Source of the DNA: a virus
IMG/VR virus record: IMGVR_UViG_3300033145_001588
Location: 1-58,137 of that record
Length of the DNA stretch: 58,137 nt
Reading direction: 5' to 3' (one strand)
The position numbers and the translations under genes were made by a program. Positions 9,692 through 22,663 of the stretch are shown in pieces. The notes below the pieces were generated by a model. The model was not told where the DNA came from and did no database searches. It was given only the letters and a program-made list of their open reading frames with translations. The first letter of the stretch is position 1. Each line of letters opens with the position of its first letter.

Positions 9692-9722
9692 ATTATACTA
9701 AAAAACGTATTTTCATTTAAGG
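9692..9722 (-). promoter_or_regulatory. Phage-type promoter, copy 3
   Basis: CCTTAAATGAAAA variant at 9710-9722, 12 bases, TATAAT at 9692-9697 on the - strand. The TAA within the block terminates the polA gene. It drives the clamp loader, SSB, RecA, RuvC group. Confidence 0.75.
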
Positions 9723-11105
9723 GTATGCATAAAATTTCTTTTCTGCCAGAGATTGATCAACCTCGCCTTTATCCATCTCCACTTCCAAAGGAATATTAAT
9801 CCATTCCCATTGCTGTAGCAATTCTTTCGTGGCAATTCTATGCATCTCATGGGTAACCATATCAAATTCTGCTGGATTGACATCCAATGTTACATCATCA
9901 TGTACCTGGAACACAGGAAAACTATCCCAATTCTTAGAGTAAGCAAGCCTATCCAATTCAATGAAAACTTTCAAGAGACAATGAAAAGCTGTTCCTTGGA
10001 AAGGGTAGTTAGTAACATCCTTCTTGTTCATCAATCCGGAACAACGAAAACCTGTGAACATATCTACATATCCTCTTCTCTGATAATCTTTCCATACCCT
10101 GTTTTTCCACCGTGTGTATTTTTTATATCGAATATTCCAGAAATAGTCTTCCACTTTCTTGACATGCCCCATGAATTTATCACCATTTTTTACTTCTCCT
10201 GCTCGATTGAGTTTTATAAGCCCTTTCCTCTCCAAATGGACAAGGGCGGGAGTATCGTCTTTTAGATATGCTTTTGCTGCCCATTTCAATAAGTTAGGCG
10301 CACAATTGCCATAATAATCACCGTAGAATTGCGGGAAAACAAAGCCACTCTTACCGCCTTGCCGTAGGTTCCCTTCACCTTTATGATGTTTATCCAATGA
10401 ATCTAACATATACAATTCAATTGCCATATCACGATGCATGTCACCTTTGATAGTATCATGAATTAACTGTGGATCTTCTGTGTATACACACGCCATTCGA
10501 ACTTCAATTCCTGAGAAATCCATCCCTGCAAATTGGTAACCTTTACGGGGAAAAATTGCCCCTCGTGTCACTCTCCTAGCCTGTTCATCCCGTTTTGGTA
10601 TGTTTTGGAAATTCGGGGAATCTGAACTGGAGCGGAAAGTACGTACCAAATGCAAATTGAAAGAAGGATGAATCACTCCGTTTACTTGTTCACGCATATA
10701 GGCATCTAAATATGTATCTCTAACTTTCATTAGTTTGCGTACTCGTATTATTGCGTCTAATTCAGGAATTCCGAGAGCACTAAGTGCCTCCTCATCTGTT
10801 GCCCCTCTGCCGGAGGCAGTTGTTTTTGCCGGTTTGATTTTTTTGATATCATAGAGAAGATGCGCAACTTGATAATTAGAATTGAAATTGTACTTCGCTC
10901 CATATACATGTTTCCAATGCCGTCCAAGTTTGCTTTGCTCTACTTTTTCTTTCAGATGATTTATTTTTTTGGTGAGCTTGTCTTTTTCTTTTTTGCAGTA
11001 TTCTACATCAATTCTCAATCCAGCACGCTCGGCTCGTGCGAAGGCAAGCGTGCCCTCGTGGAAAAGATCATAAGCAGATTTAGTCATGGGGTTGGTTTTA
11101 ATCAT
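9717..11105 (-). CDS. Family A DNA polymerase, polymerase domain only
   Basis: The 462-residue protein contains the PolA palm and fingers: motif A DFSGIEVRMA (Asp196), motif B region LRQGGKSGFVFPQFYG (about 247-262) and motif C QVHDD (His402-Asp403-Asp404, where most PolA enzymes have HDE). There is no 3'-5' exonuclease domain; that activity is in the upstream fusion gene at 11269-12486. It is the likely replicative polymerase, working with the phage clamp and loader. ATG at 11105 has GGAGAT upstream and overlaps the preceding stop (ATGA). It ends inside promoter copy 3. Confidence 0.92.
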   Translation of the reverse strand: MIKTNPMTKSAYDLFHEGTLAFARAERAGLRIDVEYCKKEKDKLTKKINHLKEKVEQSKLGRHWKHVYGAKYNFNSNYQVAHLLYDIKKIKPAKTTASGRGATDEEALSALGIPELDAIIRVRKLMKVRDTYLDAYMREQVNGVIHPSFNLHLVRTFRSSSDSPNFQNIPKRDEQARRVTRGAIFPRKGYQFAGMDFSGIEVRMACVYTEDPQLIHDTIKGDMHRDMAIELYMLDSLDKHHKGEGNLRQGGKSGFVFPQFYGDYYGNCAPNLLKWAAKAYLKDDTPALVHLERKGLIKLNRAGEVKNGDKFMGHVKKVEDYFWNIRYKKYTRWKNRVWKDYQRRGYVDMFTGFRCSGLMNKKDVTNYPFQGTAFHCLLKVFIELDRLAYSKNWDSFPVFQVHDDVTLDVNPAEFDMVTHEMHRIATKELLQQWEWINIPLEVEMDKGEVDQSLAEKKFYAYP

Positions 11106-11272
11106 GATATCTCCAATTTGATTTCAATTATTCTTTGACGGGCTCTTGCATTATTCACATCTTTATCAGGAAAACGTTCTATATTGATTCTTTGGATATA
11201 CGTTCCCGTCGATTCCTCATGTGTAGTTAGTATAGACAGTAGATCTTCTACGAATTTTTCTGTTGGATTCAT
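11102..11272 (-). CDS. Small hypothetical protein between exonuclease and polymerase
   Basis: A 56-residue frame (MNPTEKFVEDLLSIL...) starts at an ATG with GGAGATGGG upstream, overlaps the stop of the UDG-exonuclease fusion and ends in an ATGA overlap with polA. The tight coupling on both sides argues it is a real gene. It is helical and charged, with no motif I recognise. Confidence 0.65.
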   Translation of the reverse strand: MNPTEKFVEDLLSILTTHEESTGTYIQRINIERFPDKDVNNARARQRIIEIKLEIS

Positions 11273-12486
11273 ATTCCCATCTCCTCTCTTTGTTGCATTG
11301 CCAATCTATATGTATATAATGAATCAAGCGCGCAATATGTCAGGAGTTTTTCCTTTCCTCCAGGTTTCTCTATCAATTCCAATACTTTGTTAAGCGAATT
11401 TGCATTCTTTGATTCTACTCCTTTCAAGTAAGGGGAGATTTCACTATCATAATCAATAATACCTTGCTGCACATACGTCTGAAATTTTAGGGAATTTACT
11501 CCTGGTCTATTATCAAGGATATGTGCTGCCAACATTGAATCCCAGAACCACCCTTGTACAGTTTGACGCAGTCTGATGGCACTCCAGGTATCTTCAAATT
11601 TAATGTTATGCGCTATCTTTTTGATATTGGGATTGCTCAGCATCCCAGTAAATTTTCTTCTACCGGTAAGAGAAGAAGGCATCATAAAAGCATATACCTC
11701 ATTCTCATTGTATGCAATAGAAGCGCAAACAATTCGATGTCCTTTCGCATGCGGTTTTATTCCCGTTGTTTCGTAATCAAATGCTACTAAAGTAGGAAAT
11801 GTGGGCAAATCAGATGGACTGTCTATAATATGAATACACTCTTCCGCTGTCTTGTATGCTGGAAAAGGTTCTTCCAACATTGAAAAAGCTCTGGATAAAT
11901 CTTGTTTCCATATTGTATTGGCTTCATCCGTACTGAGTCTTTCAATGTAAGAAGGATGGAAAGTAGGACATAACCAACCTTGCGCATCTAAATCTGGAAT
12001 AGCCCAACCACGCCACTTAGTAATCCCACCGAAATTCTTTTTCCACCGGTGCCCAATCAACGAAGTGATTGCTGCATTTCCTAAGGCAACTACAACTTTT
12101 GGTTTCTTCTCCTCTATGACTTTCCACACCCGGGAACGACAGCAAGCTATTTCATAATCAGTTGGGGCTCTGTTATTTCCTTTCTTATCCATTGGTCGGC
12201 AATTCGCCGAGTTAATATTCAAGCAATCTTCAAAGAGATCAATCCCGAGTTCCTTGTACGTCCGTTGTAATAACCGGCCTACTTTTCCTTGCCATTGTTT
12301 ACCACGGGCGTCCTCCGTTTCACCTGGCGCTTCTCCTACATTAAGAATTCCCTTTTTGAAGTTCCCGAAGGGTTCCATGCGAGGTGATTTGGCATGCTGA
12401 TAAAGACCACAGGCAGCACAAGAAACGGGCTTGCCTTTTACACGATTAATGTTTTCCTTCTTAGGGAGATCAAAGAATCCTCTCAT
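11269..12486 (-). CDS. Uracil-DNA glycosylase-like domain fused to 3'-5' exonuclease
   Basis: Residues 1-200 resemble family 4/5 uracil-DNA glycosylases: CAACGLYQHAKSPR with iron-sulphur-type cysteines, motif 1 GEAPGETED (51-59), further cysteines in CRP and CCRSR, and HPSYI. The C-terminal 170 residues are a DnaQ/PolA-type exonuclease: AFDYETTG (DxE), AHNIKFED and a late CALDSLYTY. The downstream polA lacks an exonuclease, so this protein probably proofreads in trans while the glycosylase domain links uracil recognition to the replisome. ATG at 12486 overlaps the clamp stop (ATGA). Comparable UDG-polymerase associations are known in Bacillus phages. Confidence 0.85.
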   Translation of the reverse strand: MRGFFDLPKKENINRVKGKPVSCAACGLYQHAKSPRMEPFGNFKKGILNVGEAPGETEDARGKQWQGKVGRLLQRTYKELGIDLFEDCLNINSANCRPMDKKGNNRAPTDYEIACCRSRVWKVIEEKKPKVVVALGNAAITSLIGHRWKKNFGGITKWRGWAIPDLDAQGWLCPTFHPSYIERLSTDEANTIWKQDLSRAFSMLEEPFPAYKTAEECIHIIDSPSDLPTFPTLVAFDYETTGIKPHAKGHRIVCASIAYNENEVYAFMMPSSLTGRRKFTGMLSNPNIKKIAHNIKFEDTWSAIRLRQTVQGWFWDSMLAAHILDNRPGVNSLKFQTYVQQGIIDYDSEISPYLKGVESKNANSLNKVLELIEKPGGKEKLLTYCALDSLYTYRLAMQQREEMGI

Positions 12487-13508
12487 GCCTCTTCCTCTTT
12501 TCCTGTGGTTAACGCCATCACATGTTCCCAATTTTCCCCTATAAATTTAAGCCGATCTTTTTCAAGATAACTGGTTCGAATTTCTTCACAGATTTCTCGT
12601 AAGAATAATGGATGGGCTTGAAACGAGACAGGTTCCCCGGAATAACGAGCGTTGATTTCTTCTTCAAACCACCCGGATTCTCCTTCTGCCCGGATATATG
12701 TTTTTTTACTACCAAGACGAATAGATACTACTTCATCCAGAAGGAATTCCTTTTTTGAAAACACTGAAGCTTTCTCCAAGATTTCTTTTATTCTTTTTGG
12801 AAAGACAATTTTCTCCCCTTGCATTTGAAGAATAGGAGTTAAGTCCGGGTATTTCTCTTCTAAGATACGGCAACTGAAAATGGTTTTATCCTCCATCTTA
12901 AAATGAAGCCATCCTTTACTTTTGGCAACATTCTTGATATTATATCGTATAAGTTTCTCAACGATCCGACCAGGGATTAACATGTCATTGATAGGTAGAG
13001 TTACCCCTAACGAATATTGAGTGCCTCTAACATTATCACAAGATTCAATTATTCCATCTTTTTGCAGATGAATACAAGTAAGAACAGGACGACTCATATC
13101 ATTTGAGCAAGAGAAAAGACAAAATTGCATTGCTGTAGAAAGATTGTCAGGGAGTTCCTTCCAAGCGGATAATTCTTCTGTATTCATCAGTGGAAGGGTT
13201 ATCTCCTTCTGAAGAGAGAAACCGGCCTTTGCTTTTTCACTTTGGATAAGTACTTCTGTTCCAGTAATCTCGATTTCAAGCTCCTCCCCAGTTAATTTGC
13301 TAAGTAATTTGTATAGCTCTTCAGCCTTGATAGCGCCAGTAATATCAAGATTTTTCACTGGATGTGAAATAGAAATTTCATCATTGTAAGTAACAATCCT
13401 TCCATTGACAAACGCAAAGGAAGTTGATTGCTCAATCATTTCCTTGCTGGCTAATCCCGGCCGGACTACTTCTAACGCCTTTACCAATTCTTGCCTATTG
13501 ATTTTCAT
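12483..13508 (-). CDS. DNA polymerase sliding clamp, DnaN-like
   Basis: The 341-residue length and the pattern MKINRQELVKALEVVRPGLA, NGRIVTYNDEISIS, a central CSNDMSRPVLTCIHL and a C-terminal EHVMAL fit the beta clamp, with three repeated domains. It would encircle DNA and tether the phage PolA. The ATG at 13508 has AAGGAG eight bases upstream; the longer frame from 13541 lacks a site. It sits directly downstream of the DpdA-like gene and overlaps the UDG-exonuclease fusion. Confidence 0.85.
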   Translation of the reverse strand: MKINRQELVKALEVVRPGLASKEMIEQSTSFAFVNGRIVTYNDEISISHPVKNLDITGAIKAEELYKLLSKLTGEELEIEITGTEVLIQSEKAKAGFSLQKEITLPLMNTEELSAWKELPDNLSTAMQFCLFSCSNDMSRPVLTCIHLQKDGIIESCDNVRGTQYSLGVTLPINDMLIPGRIVEKLIRYNIKNVAKSKGWLHFKMEDKTIFSCRILEEKYPDLTPILQMQGEKIVFPKRIKEILEKASVFSKKEFLLDEVVSIRLGSKKTYIRAEGESGWFEEEINARYSGEPVSFQAHPLFLREICEEIRTSYLEKDRLKFIGENWEHVMALTTGKEEEA

Positions 13509-13527: not shown

Positions 13528-14505
13528 TCATATGAATCCAAAATTTGTACGTGGAATATATTCGGTTTTTGCTTTGCATTCGTTTAACCAACCCTCCAAA
13601 CCAAGTAGATATCGCACATTTATCAACGCTCGACATTGCCATGTTTGCAGTGCATCATATGCATACCCATCTTCCTCAAGTTTCTGTAAGAGGAGAGGTT
13701 GCATGTGTTTCACTCCTTTCCCTGCTGTCCGTGCAGAAACATTGAATGTGGAAGGAGGGCATTCATAATCCGGATTCGTAAAACCTCCTTTTGGGTAATT
13801 GATATTTCCCATCCCCGCCGCAATTCGCCACGACGCAGCATCACAACTTGTCCATGGAAACGTTCTCAGTGTGGTGTAGTTCGTTACAGCAAATCCATGC
13901 GTGTCAACGGCAGTTCCTTCTTTGTGAAGGTATTCAAATACTGTTTCTATCCATCGAATGCGTGTTGTTGACGGCATATCATTCGCAGGGGAAATTCCGA
14001 TATAAGGGAGGTACTCAAGCATCTTATCAAGCCATCGGAAGCTTTCTCCTTGATGAAATACATGAATAGGTGTTATTCCTTCCTTAAGCATTCTTCGCAT
14101 ATTCTTGTATCCTTCACGAGCAGCTTTTTCAATCAAATCGAGATTTTCTTGTTTTCGATTACTATTCAAAGCATGCGTCTCTCCCACACGACCTGGAATG
14201 ACATCGAGATTAACAATATACATCTTCTGATTTTTGAAGATTGCAATTTTCTTGAGTACCTCATGTGCATACTGAATATACGTTTGCAGATCAATTTGTT
14301 TCCCTTTATTCCAAGCTGTGAAAGCACCCGAATCTACCATGATACACCCATCAGCATCGAGGGGAAGACTATTTACCCAACCTTCAAATTGTGCAGGATA
14401 CACGTATGAAACAAGCTTATTTTTTACACCTGCTTCAATCAAGTTTATTTCACCTTCTCCTCCTCCTGACCATGGTGCAGCAAAGTATAGTTTAATCGGT
14501 TTCAT
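13528..14505 (-). CDS. dpdA: DpdA-like 7-deazaguanine DNA transglycosylase
   Basis: The 325-residue protein resembles phage DpdA, the tRNA-guanine-transglycosylase relative that exchanges guanine in DNA for a 7-deazaguanine. Visible are MVDSGAFTAW (Asp58, matching the TGT active-site DSG motif), HVFHQGES, GISPAND, THGFAV and CDAASWRIAAGMG (221-233), the region where DpdA has its candidate nucleophile Asp. ATG at 14505 has GGAGG upstream and overlaps queF by 14 bases. All precursor synthesis genes (queD, queE, queC, folE, queF) are immediately upstream, which strongly supports the assignment. The base inserted is predicted to be preQ1 or a derivative. Confidence 0.85.
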   Translation of the reverse strand: MKPIKLYFAAPWSGGGEGEINLIEAGVKNKLVSYVYPAQFEGWVNSLPLDADGCIMVDSGAFTAWNKGKQIDLQTYIQYAHEVLKKIAIFKNQKMYIVNLDVIPGRVGETHALNSNRKQENLDLIEKAAREGYKNMRRMLKEGITPIHVFHQGESFRWLDKMLEYLPYIGISPANDMPSTTRIRWIETVFEYLHKEGTAVDTHGFAVTNYTTLRTFPWTSCDAASWRIAAGMGNINYPKGGFTNPDYECPPSTFNVSARTAGKGVKHMQPLLLQKLEEDGYAYDALQTWQCRALINVRYLLGLEGWLNECKAKTEYIPRTNFGFI

Positions 14506-15271
14506 ATTCTGCCTCCACGTTGATATGTGTTCCTCCACGAACATTGAATTCTCCTATTACTTTCATCCATCTGGGGGAACAAATTGCAACACAATCTTCC
14601 AAAATTCTATTTGTGATAGTTTCCATGAAAGAACCATACTGGCGAAAAGAAAGAAAATATAATTTCAAACTCTTCGTCTCAATACAGAGTTCATCTGGAA
14701 TGTATATAATCTTGATAATAGCGAAATCGGGCTGGCCCGTTCGAGGGCAGAGACTTGTGAATTCATCAAAGATAAATTCCGTCTTGTAATCTCGATGCGG
14801 ATATTGATTTTGAAAAGTTTCAAGAACACCCTTTGAGGGTGCTTCATATTGATACTGTGTTTTATTTGATCCAAGACTTTTCAAATGTTTTACCACATCC
14901 CTTTTCTCTTTCTTCTTTGTATTTGTATTACTCTGTTTTTTATGCGCCTTATATTTTTTTCCTTTGCAAGAATATTCCCAGTAATGATTATAAAACCACC
15001 GCCTATCTCTCTCTTCAAAAGCCCGTACAATTCGGTATTCACCTCTTTTTGAGGTTCTCTCAAACACTCTACCTACAAGTGTGCGAATACCGTCACAAAG
15101 TGCAGTTGCATCACTCACGCAATTATTTGGGTATTTCTTGTTGTGCTCACGTACCAACTTGGTTTTGACATATCTCAGAGAAAAGGTTTCCCCTTCATCA
15201 TATTCTCTCGTAAAGAAAGTAGATACTATCGTGTATACTCTCCGCATAGATTCTGTATTTTTTACAGTCAT
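14492..15271 (-). CDS. queF: QueF-like nitrile reductase fused to an N-terminal domain
   Basis: The C-terminal ~110 of 259 residues are QueF: FTSLCPRTGQPD (171-182) with catalytic Cys175 and Asp182, IETKSLKLY (197-205) matching the family's E(S/T)KSxK motif, and RGGTHI. QueF reduces the nitrile preQ0 to the amine preQ1 with NADPH. Residues 1-150 are an extra basic, helical domain unknown in short QueF proteins, linked by a Lys-rich stretch (110-125). At the usual FHE motif the sequence reads FME (Met216), so a conserved His is missing. Start at ATG 15271 with AAGGAGGTG. Altered activity, such as an amidinotransferase-like reaction, is possible. Confidence 0.85.
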   Translation of the reverse strand: MTVKNTESMRRVYTIVSTFFTREYDEGETFSLRYVKTKLVREHNKKYPNNCVSDATALCDGIRTLVGRVFERTSKRGEYRIVRAFEERDRRWFYNHYWEYSCKGKKYKAHKKQSNTNTKKKEKRDVVKHLKSLGSNKTQYQYEAPSKGVLETFQNQYPHRDYKTEFIFDEFTSLCPRTGQPDFAIIKIIYIPDELCIETKSLKLYFLSFRQYGSFMETITNRILEDCVAICSPRWMKVIGEFNVRGGTHINVEAEYETD

Positions 15272-15301
15272 CACTTCACCTCCTTGTTATTATTTGTTTT
15301 G

Positions 15302-15949
15302 TTATGGTGTTAGAATTATCTTCTCTGTTAACGCTCCCGATTTTTCAAGAATAGTAAGAATGGATGGTATGTACGTGTTTTCAATTCCTGCGTATGACAT
15401 CCAAATCTCTAACCGTAAAAGCTTCCTCTTCACTTCTGCAACAGAATGTAGAGACGGAGGTGTCATTACACAACGTGCCCCTTTTGTGTTATCAATCTTT
15501 GTCAATGCCCATGCCCTCCCAAATAACTTCTGTGTGAGAATGTTTGGCGTTTCCTTATCTCGAAAAATGAGAGGGCGGATGAGTTCGAAATCACAAGAGA
15601 AAGGTTGTTTCCCATGGATTTTGCACCTTCCATCTATGTGAGATGCGTACATGCACCATTTTGAAGTATTTTCATTTTGAAAATCAGTGAACACAGTGAC
15701 TGCCTTTCCATTGATATAGATTTCACGACGTGTAAGTGGGATAGGAGGCACTTCTTCAAGAGGAATGTAATCAAGGGAAAACACAAGGCAACACGCAGCA
15801 CAATTTGAGGGGCAGGTAAAACCTCGTAAGAGCAATGGAGAAATATGTAATTTCTTAGGGACATATGTTTTCTTCTTGTATGTGAATTCCTCTTTTGTTA
15901 GGACAGAAAAATATCTCCCTACTATCTTATCTATAGAATCTATGTTCAT
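15302..15949 (-). CDS. YkgJ-like Cys-cluster protein in the base-modification operon
   Basis: The 215-residue protein has a cysteine cluster CPSNCAACC (about 46-54), then CMYASHIDGRCKIHGKQPFSC around residues 98-118, the arrangement of the CxxCxxCC (YkgJ) family, thought to bind iron or zinc. It lies between folE and queF in the 7-deazaguanine operon with short gaps. No function follows directly; it could modify the preQ1 side chain further, mature a metal centre, or act on a precursor. The position makes a role in base modification the leading inference. Confidence 0.7.
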   Translation of the reverse strand: MNIDSIDKIVGRYFSVLTKEEFTYKKKTYVPKKLHISPLLLRGFTCPSNCAACCLVFSLDYIPLEEVPPIPLTRREIYINGKAVTVFTDFQNENTSKWCMYASHIDGRCKIHGKQPFSCDFELIRPLIFRDKETPNILTQKLFGRAWALTKIDNTKGARCVMTPPSLHSVAEVKRKLLRLEIWMSYAGIENTYIPSILTILEKSGALTEKIILTP

Positions 15950-15964: not shown

Positions 15965-16519
15965 CTATGAATTGATGAGCCCCATTAACTCCGTCCTCGT
16001 GGCAATTTCATCTAAGAAAGCACCTTTCAAACTTGATGTAAACATGACTGAATTCTGTTTGGAACACCCTCTCATTCGCATACACATGTGTTGTGCTTCA
16101 ATGATGCAGGCTGCACCTTTTGGTTGTAGTATTTCCATCAAAGTGGAAGTAACTTGTTCTCCTATCCTCTCTTGAATTTGGAGCCTTCGTGCATATATAT
16201 CTACTAACCGTGCAAGCTTACTGATTCCTATCACCCTCTTGTTAGGAATGTATGCAACGTGCGCCTTGCCGAAAAAAGGGAGAATGTGGTGCTCACACAT
16301 AGAATATAGTTCAATATCCTTGAGGAGTACAATCTGGTCATACCCGTCAGAAGCGAAGGTAGTAAGTAATGTAGAAGGATCTTCAGAATACCCGGAAAAC
16401 AATTCTTCACATGCTCTGATAATACGTTGTGGAGTTTCTTTCAACCCTTCTCTATCTGGATCTTCACCTATGTATTGAAGTAAGTGTGTTATACTTTCTG
16501 CTATGATGTCTTTTTTCAT
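15965..16519 (-). CDS. folE: GTP cyclohydrolase I
   Basis: At 184 residues this is a typical Fol[15 protein letters not shown], the zinc-binding [33 protein letters not shown], and MRGCSKQNS with the late zinc Cys. It opens GTP to 7,8-dihydroneopterin triphosphate, the first step toward 7-deazaguanines. Ribosome site GGAGG before the ATG. Having its own FolE lets the phage raise precursor flux without depending on host folate synthesis. Confidence 0.95.
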
Positions 16520-16554: not shown

Positions 16555-17220
16555 CTAATCTTTAGCATATTCCGCGGGATCTTGTGTGTTATTCAAACGG
16601 AAGGCTTCAAGTCTTTCCCGGCAAGCACCACAAACCTCACAAGCAAGTTCCTGTGATTTGTAACAAGTACGTGTCAGATGGAAAGGCACATTATGCTCCA
16701 ATCCCCATTTGACAATCCCTGTTTTATCTGTTTTTATGAAAGGCGCTAACGTTTGTACTTTGCCTCCTGTCGCTAAGAAAATAGCAAGATCAACCGCTTT
16801 GTAGAACTCAATCCTACAATCAGGGTAAATGGCGTGATCCCCTTGATGCGCTCCGAAAGCGATTGCATCTGCCCCTTGAGATTCTGCAATCCCCGCCAGA
16901 ATAGATAAGAAAATCATATTCCTGGCAGGGACAACTGTTTGTGACATTGATTTATCTTCGTAAGATCCTTCAGGAATAGCACCTCCTGTTAAAAGAAGAT
17001 TTGATTTAAACAAGTTCATCATCTCTGAAAGATTGATAAAAGATAAATCATTTTCCAATCCATAATATGCTGACACTCGTTTTGCAGCCTCATTTTCATA
17101 TTTATTGTGTTTACTTGCATAGTAAAAACTAACGGGCATCACCTCATATTTCTGGGCAAGTGCCCACGCCAATACCGTAGTGGAATCTACCCCACCTGAC
17201 AATGATATAATCACTTTCAT
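16555..17220 (-). CDS. queC: 7-cyano-7-deazaguanine synthase
   Basis: The 221-residue protein has the PP-loop SGGVDSTT at residues 8-15, [20 protein letters not shown] and the C-terminal zinc cysteines in [21 protein letters not shown]. QueC converts 7-carboxy-7-deazaguanine to preQ0 using ATP and ammonia. I start at ATG 17220, which has GAGGTG about 8 bases upstream; the longer frame from 17274 overlaps the preceding gene without a site. No glutamine amidotransferase-like fusion (as in archaeosine-type phage QueC fusions) is present, consistent with a preQ0 to preQ1 route. Confidence 0.95.
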
Positions 17221-17254
17221 ATACATACACCTCTTCCATGATTCTCTCTTAGTT

Positions 17255-18199
17255 TTAGAAGGAGAGGGTCCCATCCTTTCTTTGTTTCACCAATTTATCA
17301 AATTTGTTGTACTTAGGATTTTTACTATCTGTAATCATTGTTCCCCATGCATCTCTTGAAGAAGAAGGAAACTCTTTCATTCCTTTTTCTATCATTTCTT
17401 TGCGAGAATATTTCCCTTCTTCAAGTAGAGAGAGGAGAAACAAAGTTCTTTCACCAAATCTTCTTCCCTTGGAACTATCTTTCTTATCAGTACTCTCCTT
17501 TTTCTCCTCTTGAACACCTTCTTTTTTATCATCCACACTTTCATCTTTCTGAGAATCTTTCTCATTCTTGACTTCTTTCTTTTCCTTTGTAACTCCAGCA
17601 ATCACTGATAATGTATCATCAGTAAGATCGTCCAACTCTGGGTCAACCAATTTTGCTGCTTCTTTGATCAATACAATTAGTTTCTCCGGTTTCTCCTTAG
17701 TATTAATCTGTGGATCAAGGCCAAGTACCTCATTCAATTCTTTTGCTGCTTTTACCAACGCACTCCTTTTCATAATACTCTCCTCCATTTTTCTTAAATC
17801 TTGTTTGGGGTATATTCTATGCTTAATAGATTCATACTCACTATTTCCTCTTAACTTATCGCCCCATCTGTTCGAGAAGCCAAAACCATGGAGGCGACCG
17901 AGGCCTTCTGCCACAAGTATTTTTTCATAGAATGCTTCCAATAGTCTTCTACGGCTATTTGGTAGCTTTGTATTCTTCTCATTCCGATTGATGTATCTTG
18001 TTAATGCTGCCCGTTCGCCTCCTTTCTTATCTTCCCGTTCTACCTTTGCCATTTCAAGAGAAAGTTCTGTCACCACACGATAAAGTTCTTGCAATGCTTC
18101 TGTAGAACGGAATTTTAAATCAGGTAATGCTTCAAGAACAATGGCCGGAAGTTTGCAAGGGTCATTATCAATTTTGACTCCGTTTAATTTCCAAACCAT
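17255..18199 (-). CDS. Unknown protein within the base-modification cluster
   Basis: The 314-residue protein has a helical N-terminal domain (about 1-130; FRSTEALQELYRVVTEL, LHGFGFSNRWGDKL), a very long Lys/Glu/Asp linker (about 205-245) and a small C-terminal domain (FGERTLFLLSLLEEGKYSRKEMIEKGMKEFPSSSRDAWGTMITDSK) that looks like a winged-helix. I do not recognise it. It is the first gene behind promoter copy 4 and is followed closely by queC, so it is coexpressed with the modification enzymes. It could be a DNA-binding partner that guides modification, but nothing in the sequence proves this. Confidence 0.65.
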   Translation of the reverse strand: MVWKLNGVKIDNDPCKLPAIVLEALPDLKFRSTEALQELYRVVTELSLEMAKVEREDKKGGERAALTRYINRNEKNTKLPNSRRRLLEAFYEKILVAEGLGRLHGFGFSNRWGDKLRGNSEYESIKHRIYPKQDLRKMEESIMKRSALVKAAKELNEVLGLDPQINTKEKPEKLIVLIKEAAKLVDPELDDLTDDTLSVIAGVTKEKKEVKNEKDSQKDESVDDKKEGVQEEKKESTDKKDSSKGRRFGERTLFLLSLLEEGKYSRKEMIEKGMKEFPSSSRDAWGTMITDSKNPKYNKFDKLVKQRKDGTLSF

Positions 18200-18219: not shown

Positions 18220-18250
18220 ATTATACTGAAAAACCTATTTTCATTTAAGG
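18220..18250 (-). promoter_or_regulatory. Phage-type promoter, copy 4
   Basis: CCTTAAATGAAAA at 18238-18250, 12 bases, TATAAT at 18220-18225 on the - strand, then a GGAGG ribosome site. The TAA is the queE stop codon. It drives the unknown gene, queC, folE and probably everything down to polA. Confidence 0.78.
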
Positions 18251-18943
18251 TAAATTAGCGAGTTTATGTAATTGGACAGAAAATATCACGTAATCCAATA
18301 GCATAGAATATACTTGTTCTATATCCTGAACAATATCTGGAATCATCATTCCCTTGGCATTTATTGGACTGATAATAAAATTCTGATTCTTGGGGAATTC
18401 ACTACGTAGCATCAATTTTTTACAAATGCTAATCGCCTGAGAAAGATCCTCCTTATTAGCAACAACAAATTTTAAGTAATTGTGAATTGAACTACGTAGA
18501 ATATCAGCGAATACTGATAAACTAAGCATTTTATCAGTCATTCCAGATGAAGCCAATTTGTAATCTACTACCCAACTTACACGTGAATTCTGCGTGGTTA
18601 AATTAGGAGGACAAATACTTCCGTTTGTTTCTATCTGTATTTGACAATCAGTATACGTAAGGAGATAAGCAATTAAAGAATTTAAAGCTCCTTTTTGCAT
18701 CAAGGGTTCTCCTCCGGTAATGAGGATATGTCGTTGAAAAATACGACTGGATATCTCTCGTAGTGTCATCCATCTGCCTTCTTCTTTGTTTTGTGCCTGT
18801 GAGGTATCGCAATAATTACAAGGTTTCGGAAAGAAATTACACCCTTGTAAACGAATGAATGTGCACCAAGTCCCTTGTGGAAAGAAACCAGCTTCCCCGG
18901 ATATAGATTCAAAAATAGAATGCACCTTCAGTTTGTTTTTCAT
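18245..18943 (-). CDS. queE: 7-carboxy-7-deazaguanine synthase, radical SAM
   Basis: The 232-residue protein has FESISGEAGFFPQG at the N-terminus, the cluster loop GCNFFPKPCNYCDT (Cys35, Cys42, Cys45) and ILITGGEPLMQ. It matches QueE, which rearranges 6-carboxytetrahydropterin to 7-carboxy-7-deazaguanine. The cluster spacing is CX6CX2C rather than the usual CX3CX2C; insertions here are known in some QueE (for example CX14CX2C in a Burkholderia enzyme). The ATG at 18943 overlaps the queD stop (TGATG) with GGAG upstream; the longer frame from 18982 is less likely. Confidence 0.92.
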   Translation of the reverse strand: MKNKLKVHSIFESISGEAGFFPQGTWCTFIRLQGCNFFPKPCNYCDTSQAQNKEEGRWMTLREISSRIFQRHILITGGEPLMQKGALNSLIAYLLTYTDCQIQIETNGSICPPNLTTQNSRVSWVVDYKLASSGMTDKMLSLSVFADILRSSIHNYLKFVVANKEDLSQAISICKKLMLRSEFPKNQNFIISPINAKGMMIPDIVQDIEQVYSMLLDYVIFSVQLHKLANLP

Positions 18944-19350
18944 CACTTTCTCCATTCCACATAGCTGGTTGACGTTTCCCATAAACGGACAAGTGCAATT
19001 TCACCTTCCTTCCATCCCGCATTACCACATATGTACTCCAATCGCCATAATATCCAATCTACTATATTTTCTGCCGTAGGCATCACCCATGGAAAGTTGA
19101 TCACTTGTAACGTGTTCCCTTGTAACGTGTTCAGAAAGGTATGATCCAGAATATCTATAATCTCACGGGATACTATTTCTTTCAATCGGGAAAAATCCAT
19201 CACCATTCCTGTCTTGTTATTTATATATCCTTCTACCCCAATTTCCAAAAGATACGAATGCCCATGAATGTTCTTGCATTTTCCATTGTACTCCGGTAAA
19301 AAATGGGCAGCCTCGAACTTGAATTGCTTTACTATCATCATCTTCTTCAT
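18943..19350 (-). CDS. queD: 6-carboxy-5,6,7,8-tetrahydropterin synthase
   Basis: The 135-residue protein is a typical QueD: FKFEAAHFLP with a zinc His, KCKNIHGHSY with catalytic Cys and two zinc His, VMDFSRLKEIV, LDHTFLN and PTAENIV, ending in WETSTSYVEW. It makes 6-carboxytetrahydropterin from dihydroneopterin triphosphate. AGGAGG precedes the ATG, and promoter copy 5 lies just upstream. It is translationally coupled to queE. Confidence 0.95.
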   Translation of the reverse strand: MKKMMIVKQFKFEAAHFLPEYNGKCKNIHGHSYLLEIGVEGYINNKTGMVMDFSRLKEIVSREIIDILDHTFLNTLQGNTLQVINFPWVMPTAENIVDWILWRLEYICGNAGWKEGEIALVRLWETSTSYVEWRK

Positions 19351-21251: not shown

Positions 21252-22040
21252 CTAAAAGAAAAATCCTTTCTTTTTCTTTTCCGGATGTTCCTCCATGAAT
21301 TTAATAATATTCAATCTCTTGGCTGCTATTTCACAGTAGCGCTCTTCTATTTCTATGCCGATACATTTTCTGCCTATGTTTTGACAGGCCGCCGCCGTAG
21401 TCCCTGAACCCATTGCAAAGTCGAGTACCGTGTCGCCTTCATTTGTGTAAGTCTTGATAAGGTACTCCATGAGGGCTATTGGTTTTTGGGTAGGGTGTGC
21501 CTTGCCTTTTTGTGATGCATTTGAACTTTCAATTATTGTCGTAGGGTATTTGTGCGTATAGGTATAGATTTTGTCTTCTCTTTTTCTATCCCCACCAAAA
21601 GCCTCACCCGTTCCACAATTCTTGGATCGTATTATTTTATTCCGTAAAATCATCTGCGGATTATATTTAACTCTCCCATCAGCAAACACAAGCACATTTT
21701 CATGTATTTTCATTGGTTGATATTTGGCAAGAAATATGTTCCCTGCTTTTTTCTTGTTCCAAATCCACTCATACATAAACATTTCCATATTGCTTGAAAT
21801 TAGAATAGTGGTAAATGGCTGGCTTGCAGTCATTACAATAGCCCTATTCGGTTTTATAAGGCGCTTTAATTCCTTCCACATAGGTTCAAAGGGTATGATG
21901 GAATCCCACGAACACGCAGTCATACCGTAAGGTGGGTCTGCTAAAACCATATCAATGTCATTTTCAAGTTCTGGCATAACTTTAAGACAGTCTCCGTGAT
22001 AAATCACAATTCCATTTCCATCATCATAATATGGTTTCAT
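21252..22040 (-). CDS. DNA (adenine or N4-cytosine) methyltransferase
   Basis: The 262-residue protein has the amino-methyltransferase motifs in beta-class order: DPPYG near residue 40 (catalytic, motif IV), HPTQKP, and the SAM-binding LDFAMGSGTT near the C-terminus. Such enzymes methylate adenine N6 or cytosine N4 at a short target. The ATG at 22040 overlaps the DnaC-like stop (ATGA). Together with the 7-deazaguanine pathway it gives the phage a second DNA modification, probably against host restriction. No partner endonuclease is encoded nearby, so it looks like an orphan enzyme. Confidence 0.9.
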   Translation of the reverse strand: MKPYYDDGNGIVIYHGDCLKVMPELENDIDMVLADPPYGMTACSWDSIIPFEPMWKELKRLIKPNRAIVMTASQPFTTILISSNMEMFMYEWIWNKKKAGNIFLAKYQPMKIHENVLVFADGRVKYNPQMILRNKIIRSKNCGTGEAFGGDRKREDKIYTYTHKYPTTIIESSNASQKGKAHPTQKPIALMEYLIKTYTNEGDTVLDFAMGSGTTAAACQNIGRKCIGIEIEERYCEIAAKRLNIIKFMEEHPEKKKKGFFF

Positions 22041-22663
22041 TCCTCCAACCGCCTGTCTGTATTTTTCATACTGTGAATATAGCACATACCAAAAATCCGT
22101 GATGGTATCCTGTCATCCCCTAACTTCTCCGCCAGTTGATCCAAATTGAAATTACTGGTAAAGATAGTAGATTTGAGATATTCATAGCGATTGTTAATGA
22201 TGATGGATAAAGATTGCAAAGTCCAATCCGAAACTTTCTCTGCTCCTATATCATCCAGGATCAGATATTTCGTTGTACTGTATTTTTCAATAATTTCCAT
22301 CTCAGTGTGTTCTTGATTTGTGAAAGTGTTTCTGAGCTCCCCTAATAAATTACATACGGGAAGAAAATACGTCCATGGTTCATAGATAGTTTCCCCATTC
22401 TCATCTTTTGGAAGTGGAGTCGGGTACAGATAGTCTTCCAGTCTGAGCGCCTCCAAGAGCATAGCCGCCAAAACCGTTTTCCCGGAACCAGCATTTCCAT
22501 GAATATAAACACCTCTTCCTTTCTCCTGCTGTATCTTTACAATCAAGGTATCTATCTCATCAGGTGATTCAAATTTTTCCAAGTCTCTGACTATCCTTGG
22601 TGGAAAAGTTTTTTCTCTAAAACGATCTCTAAATCTTTTTTTCCAATCTTCTGCAGTTTTCAT
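22037..22663 (-). CDS. DnaC-like helicase loader ATPase
   Basis: The 208-residue AAA+ protein has Walker A GNAGSGKTVLA, Walker B YLILDDIGAEK, a sensor-like FTSNF and the arginine-rich DRRLEE end, the pattern of DnaC/IstB-type loaders. It probably loads the phage DnaB-like helicase (19525-21042) onto DNA bound by the replisome organiser directly upstream (22666-23601). It is coupled to the methyltransferase gene by ATGA. Confidence 0.88.
   Translation of the reverse strand: MKTAEDWKKRFRDRFREKTFPPRIVRDLEKFESPDEIDTLIVKIQQEKGRGVYIHGNAGSGKTVLAAMLLEALRLEDYLYPTPLPKDENGETIYEPWTYFLPVCNLLGELRNTFTNQEHTEMEIIEKYSTTKYLILDDIGAEKVSDWTLQSLSIIINNRYEYLKSTIFTSNFNLDQLAEKLGDDRIPSRIFGMCYIHSMKNTDRRLEE

Follow-up and report, generated by a model that had tools for sequence, protein, structure and literature searches.

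The window examined here, a viral record analysed over its full length of 58,137 bases, carries on its minus strand an operon in the order queD, queE, a gene for a 314-residue protein, queC, folE, a cysteine-cluster gene, queF and dpdA. The assigned genes were queD (6-carboxytetrahydropterin synthase, 18943..19350; PF01242, E=4.8e-34), queE (radical SAM 7-carboxy-7-deazaguanine synthase, 18245..18982; PF04055, E=7e-7, and a purpose-built QueE profile), queC (preQ0 synthase, 16555..17274; PF06508, E=6.5e-56), folE (GTP cyclohydrolase I, 15965..16519; PF01227, E=1.6e-73), queF (7-cyano-7-deazaguanine reductase, which makes preQ1, 14492..15274; PF14489, E=1.4e-30, residues 182–258) and dpdA (DNA guanine transglycosylase, 13528..14544; phrog_887, E=3e-42). 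The clustering of folE, queD, queE and queC with a DpdA transglycosylase marks this as a 7-deazaguanine DNA-modification operon in the sense of Hutinet et al. (2019), and relatives of the window dpdA were found in 181 phage records, including CAjan, 9g and Dp-1.

Other features of the region were also recorded. Neither Pfam nor PHROG assigned a family to the 314-residue operon gene between queC and queE (17255–18199; best E 0.02–0.05), and the window queF has an N-terminal extension of approximately 110 residues (14945–15274) that the short QueF proteins of phages Knocker and phi38:2 lack. On the 3' side of dpdA lie a sliding-clamp-like protein, named from its neighbourhood as it had no Pfam match, and then DNA polymerase pieces; across 11269–12531 and 9717–11105 one gene joins a uracil-DNA-glycosylase domain to a 3'-5' exonuclease, and the family A polymerase domain is encoded separately. 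An N6/N4 DNA methylase gene (21252–22085), a second DNA modification gene of this phage, lies some 1.9 kb upstream of queD and has the same orientation.

The cysteine-cluster gene (15302..15949, minus strand) is an ORF of 215 codons with an ATG start and the sequence AGGA 8 bases upstream of it; 15 bases separate it from folE upstream and 27 from queF downstream. The ORF, its motif and the profiles of the flanking genes thus confirmed the original prediction of a CxxxCxxCC protein between folE and queF in an operon serving a single pathway. Profile, homology, operon and model evidence is used below to propose that this YkgJ/PF03692-like protein of 215 aa is a DpdM-like dPreQ1 N-methyltransferase. 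The motif, CPSNCAACC, occupies residues 46–54 (codons 15788..15814, minus strand) and would supply ligands for a metal or a [4Fe-4S] cluster; the other cysteines are at positions 99, 109, 119 and 160. Among 56 relatives all eight cysteines were at least 91 % conserved and six were invariant, the four motif cysteines being either invariant or 98 % conserved. Further conserved blocks in these relatives were RGF.CP..C..CC..FSLDY, GRC.IH, PFSCDFELIR and FGRGW.

PF03692 matched the window protein with E=2e-4 and 22.4 bits, 0.6 bits below the Pfam gathering score (23 bits), and its cysteine signature is present in the protein; the same profile matched 44 of the 56 relatives at E≤0.01 (best 2.5e-8). 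AlphaFold gave a confident model of the window protein (pLDDT 95.3, pTM 0.90). A search of the PDB with this model by Foldseek and VIA-align returned nothing that reached E≤0.001 or Z≥2, a result that does not in itself prove a new fold, and no SAM-binding fold was recognized. Fold searches of a viral structure library returned three relatives only. A sequence-based search of solved structures matched only RPB3, which was judged to be a chance hit.

Relatives with 22–49 % identity, usually adjoining queF, were found in phages that infect Vibrio, Mycobacterium, Cellulophaga or cyanobacteria, as well as in 47 viral contigs. Scanning the viral contigs with the single window sequence detected none of these, and the 47 contig loci were recovered with a profile built from seven relatives; no relatives were found in plasmids. 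By tblastn, near full-length matches (30–46 % identity) were obtained in 27 phage records, of which 18 are from Vibrio and seven from Cellulophaga, the other two being a Pseudanabaena cyanophage and Mycobacterium phage Knocker. In Pan1, Knocker and phi38:2, which represent three of the four unrelated host groups, the gene is placed next to queF and dpdA or between the two. A chance origin of the ORF was dismissed because of these near full-length relatives and the operon position shared by distant phages. A tandem pair of cysteine-cluster genes was observed in a Syntrophobacteraceae bin (L297:131-1893).

To compare gene content, the viral contigs were scanned separately with QueF, QueC and DpdA profiles, the loci were scored with seven family profiles and overlapping loci were merged; the pathway was regarded as visible when a contig contained at least three of folE, queC, queD and queE. 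QueF was present in 40 of the 42 gene-bearing contigs with a visible pathway, and in 41 of 42 once the whole record was searched, compared with 16 of 57 contigs in a QueC-based sample selected for neither gene. The co-occurrence with queF and dpdA in other phages on which the original prediction had been staked was therefore found. After thinning at 70 % QueC identity, QueF was present in 26 of 27 gene-bearing clusters and in 14 of 54 from the QueC sample (P=4e-10), the two sets having come from different queries, so that P values comparing them are a guide only. Within the QueC scan by itself the contrast was modest: the cysteine-cluster gene occurred in 4 of 16 contigs with QueF and in 1 of 41 without it (P=0.019; P=0.049 after thinning). 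No QueF contrast emerged from the DpdA-based sample (6/37 versus 1/8, P=1), since nearly every contig in that sample carries QueF.

The two genes are also physically close. In 34 of the 49 contigs that contain both, they are on one strand and separated by no more than 300 bases, and the cysteine-cluster gene keeps with queF even when the transglycosylase belongs to another subfamily. It was seen without a visible QueF in L026, L041, L050, L182 and two short contigs, all of which may be fragments, and two bacterial genomes carried a relative with no QueF match above the cut-off. Overall the distribution is nested, with the cysteine-cluster gene falling within the QueF-bearing phages and these within the DpdA-bearing phages.

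Many phages that make the same precursors manage without the gene. The cysteine-cluster gene was absent from 111 contigs that have three or more preQ0 genes, and 63 of these carried QueF. Phages infecting one host, Mycobacterium smegmatis, form a natural series: the DNA of Rosebush contains dPreQ0 (PMC6884629), queF occurs without the cysteine-cluster gene in Funsized and Rinkes, and Knocker has both genes, with the cysteine-cluster gene placed cleanly between dpdA and queC. Among the Vibrio Schizotequatroviruses, VH7D-type QueF was found in 46 Vibrio records and the cysteine-cluster gene in 18, all of them within those 46; here the gene stands alone and QueF is encoded elsewhere in the genome. 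Vibrio phage 6E35.1a (MW824377), taken to be 6E351A of PMC12028318, has QueF and lacks the cysteine-cluster gene, and its modified nucleoside is plain dPreQ1 with a mass of 295 Da (PMC12028318). dPreQ1 is likewise made by Streptococcus phage Dp-1 and by halovirus HVTV-1 (PMC6884629), neither of which was among the tblastn matches to the gene. As most QueF phages lack the gene and three of them make plain dPreQ1, QueE and QueF, and the synthesis and insertion of preQ1, do not depend on it.

This bears on the suggestion, also part of the original prediction, that the protein loads metal into QueE or QueF. The name of PF03692, a putative zinc- or iron-chelating domain, would suit a factor that loads metal into, or repairs, QueE, a radical SAM enzyme, or another enzyme of the pathway. 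Such a role is nevertheless very unlikely, given the 111 contigs that have the pathway alone and the modified bases made without the gene by Rosebush, CAjan, Dp-1, HVTV-1 and 6E35.1a (PMC6884629, PMC12028318). Most phages bearing QueE and QueF lack the gene, among them phages in which mass spectrometry has shown dPreQ0 or dPreQ1 (PMC6884629, PMC12028318). The gene is, moreover, linked to QueF and not to QueE. QueF is not known to be a metalloenzyme, which also counts against this role.

A gene that is needless for making preQ1, and is not retained in the absence of preQ1 synthesis, points to a step after preQ1. The further modification of preQ1 that had been suggested is thus well supported, the gene tracking queF and the deazaguanine genes across unrelated phages. 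The only difference between preQ1 and preQ0 is a primary amine on a CH2. We consider that the window protein is probably a tailoring enzyme of the 7-deazaguanine DNA pathway, most likely one that uses SAM to N-methylate the preQ1 amine with the help of a cysteine-held metal. In the proposed scheme FolE, QueD, QueE and QueC would produce preQ0, QueF would reduce it to preQ1 (7-aminomethyl-7-deazaguanine) and DpdA would swap guanine in DNA for preQ1. The window protein would modify the exposed primary amine, before or after insertion into DNA. Addition of one methyl group from S-adenosylmethionine would give the likeliest product, 2'-deoxy-7-(methylamino)methyl-7-deazaguanine (methyl-dPreQ1).

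The model for this chemistry is FliB, the flagellin lysine N-methylase and the only biochemically studied protein found to have a motif of this type. It uses SAM to methylate a primary amine, has a CX4CX3CC motif and eight conserved cysteines, and binds a single [4Fe-4S] cluster; cluster and activity were both lost on replacement of the four cysteines of the motif (PMC8598068). As FliB methylates amines and preQ1 carries a primary amine, amine methylation is the most economical proposal, and the conserved cysteines of the window protein, inside and outside the CxxxCxxCC motif, would hold a metal, which by comparison with FliB is probably a [4Fe-4S] cluster. Methylation, use of SAM and the type of cluster are thus inferred by analogy. 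Location and distribution place the step after QueF but do not define its chemistry, and the structure-based search revealed no SAM site, so preQ1 or dPreQ1 might instead be formylated, oxidized or given a larger group, yielding a base other than methyl-dPreQ1. We regard this as rather unlikely, as the characterized protein with such a motif, FliB, is an amine methyltransferase (PMC8598068), and for formylation Formyl_trans_N proteins would be expected, one of which adjoins queF in another contig.

That formyltransferase is not the only candidate for modification of the same amine. A GNAT-family acyltransferase gene was present in the operon of 10 of 72 QueF contigs without the cysteine-cluster gene, but never in the 43 contigs with it or in the 55 contigs lacking QueF (P=0.013 and 0.03); examples are L108:10417-10851, L117:5053-5496, L128:2345-2788, L134:3456-3902, L222:9022-9492 and L276:6681-7079, among others. 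The absence of GNAT genes alongside the cysteine-cluster gene, together with the formyltransferase beside queF, fits an operon position that can be filled by different modifiers of the preQ1 amine, the GNAT gene being a candidate for making an acylated preQ1 base.

Bacterial relatives of the cysteine-cluster protein were nested inside the phage family. They came from Methylobacterium sp. Leaf117 (L303) and from two bins, one alphaproteobacterial (L301) and one acidobacterial (L298), and none of these three genomes contained a DpdA match. Each relative has a DUF6610 gene nearby (L303:9239-10630, L301:8889-10621, L298:1201-3545 for the pairs), directly before it in L303 and L301 and close by on the opposite strand in L298. 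The best Foldseek match of the DUF6610 model (pLDDT 86) was to tRNA-guanine transglycosylases (E=1e-4, probability 1.0); by VIA-align these scored Z 13, equal to other TIM barrels. DUF6610 retains an HLLGG...SxD pattern, and its comparison with DpdA by hhalign was not significant, although its structural resemblance to the tRNA-guanine transglycosylases is clear. DUF6610 is thus predicted to have a tRNA-guanine-transglycosylase fold, so that the cysteine-cluster protein would accompany a transglycosylase-like fold even far from preQ0 genes. Leaf117 carries its own QueF, and the bacterial pair is possibly a two-gene modification module acting on host preQ1. ParB-like proteins with a C-terminal DUF6610 domain were also found at queF-bearing phage loci (L002:1-1314, L027:7170-8432, L034:7173-8948, L042:7047-8549, L115:7016-8239, L119:6989-8227 and L200:7655-8938); DpdA1 was not found at these loci, with the exception of L002, and the ParB–DUF6610 fusion may be the transglycosylase where DpdA1 is absent.

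Another reading is that the protein has no enzymatic part in the base pathway and is a structural or regulatory zinc protein that binds DNA or DpdA and travels with queF. The pairing with a transglycosylase-fold protein in some bacteria, where preQ0 genes are not nearby, would also suit a transglycosylase partner. This seems the least probable explanation, as the link is to QueF and not to one type of transglycosylase, and the eight strictly conserved cysteines and the compact, confidently modelled fold (AlphaFold) suit a cluster enzyme. It is likewise unlikely, though less remotely so, that the phage product is a non-methyl dPreQ1 derivative or the result of cluster chemistry undescribed for DNA bases, combined with a bacterial DUF6610 two-gene module that draws preQ1 from the host queuosine pathway.

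If N-methylation of the preQ1 amine is the correct reading, phage genes listed as 'hypothetical' or 'YkgJ family' beside queF become nameable, and the DNA base of such phages could be predicted as methyl-dPreQ1 and not dPreQ1, which bears on the restriction enzymes that they escape. The poorly understood CxxCxxCC family would then include amine methyltransferases acting on two unlike substrates, lysine in flagellin and a base in DNA.

The window protein can be compared with three known systems. It shares with the YkgJ/YcgN-type proteins (PF03692) the CxxxCxxCC motif and a later C...C.IH..P..C pattern, whilst the phage set differs in its additional SLDY, GRC.IH, PFSCDFE and GRGW blocks and in its tie to QueF. 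With FliB it has in common a motif of the CxnCxnCC kind, eight conserved cysteines, a likely cluster and, as predicted here, a primary-amine substrate, but the spacing is CX3CX2CC in place of CX4CX3CC and the substrate of FliB is a protein. The FliB family model (NF038110) did not match the window protein, and matched only one of the 56 relatives (E=0.041); the protein was therefore not classed as a FliB. The third system is DpdM, which Cui and colleagues reportedly described in 2023 as a dPreQ1 methyltransferase with a 'unique fold', unlike known nucleic-acid methylases. The likeness to DpdM lies in methylation of dPreQ1 (predicted for the window protein) and a phage context with QueF and DpdA. 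The window protein is only 30–46 % identical to its relatives in named phages. The co-occurrence of DpdM with preQ1-making enzymes is shared by the window gene family, and the lack of a PDB match to the predicted structure is in line with the reported fold. Of the 'possible new base-tailoring enzyme' originally predicted, the tailoring role therefore stands and the novelty is doubtful: the window protein is probably a DpdM-type enzyme, of a kind believed to have been described already.
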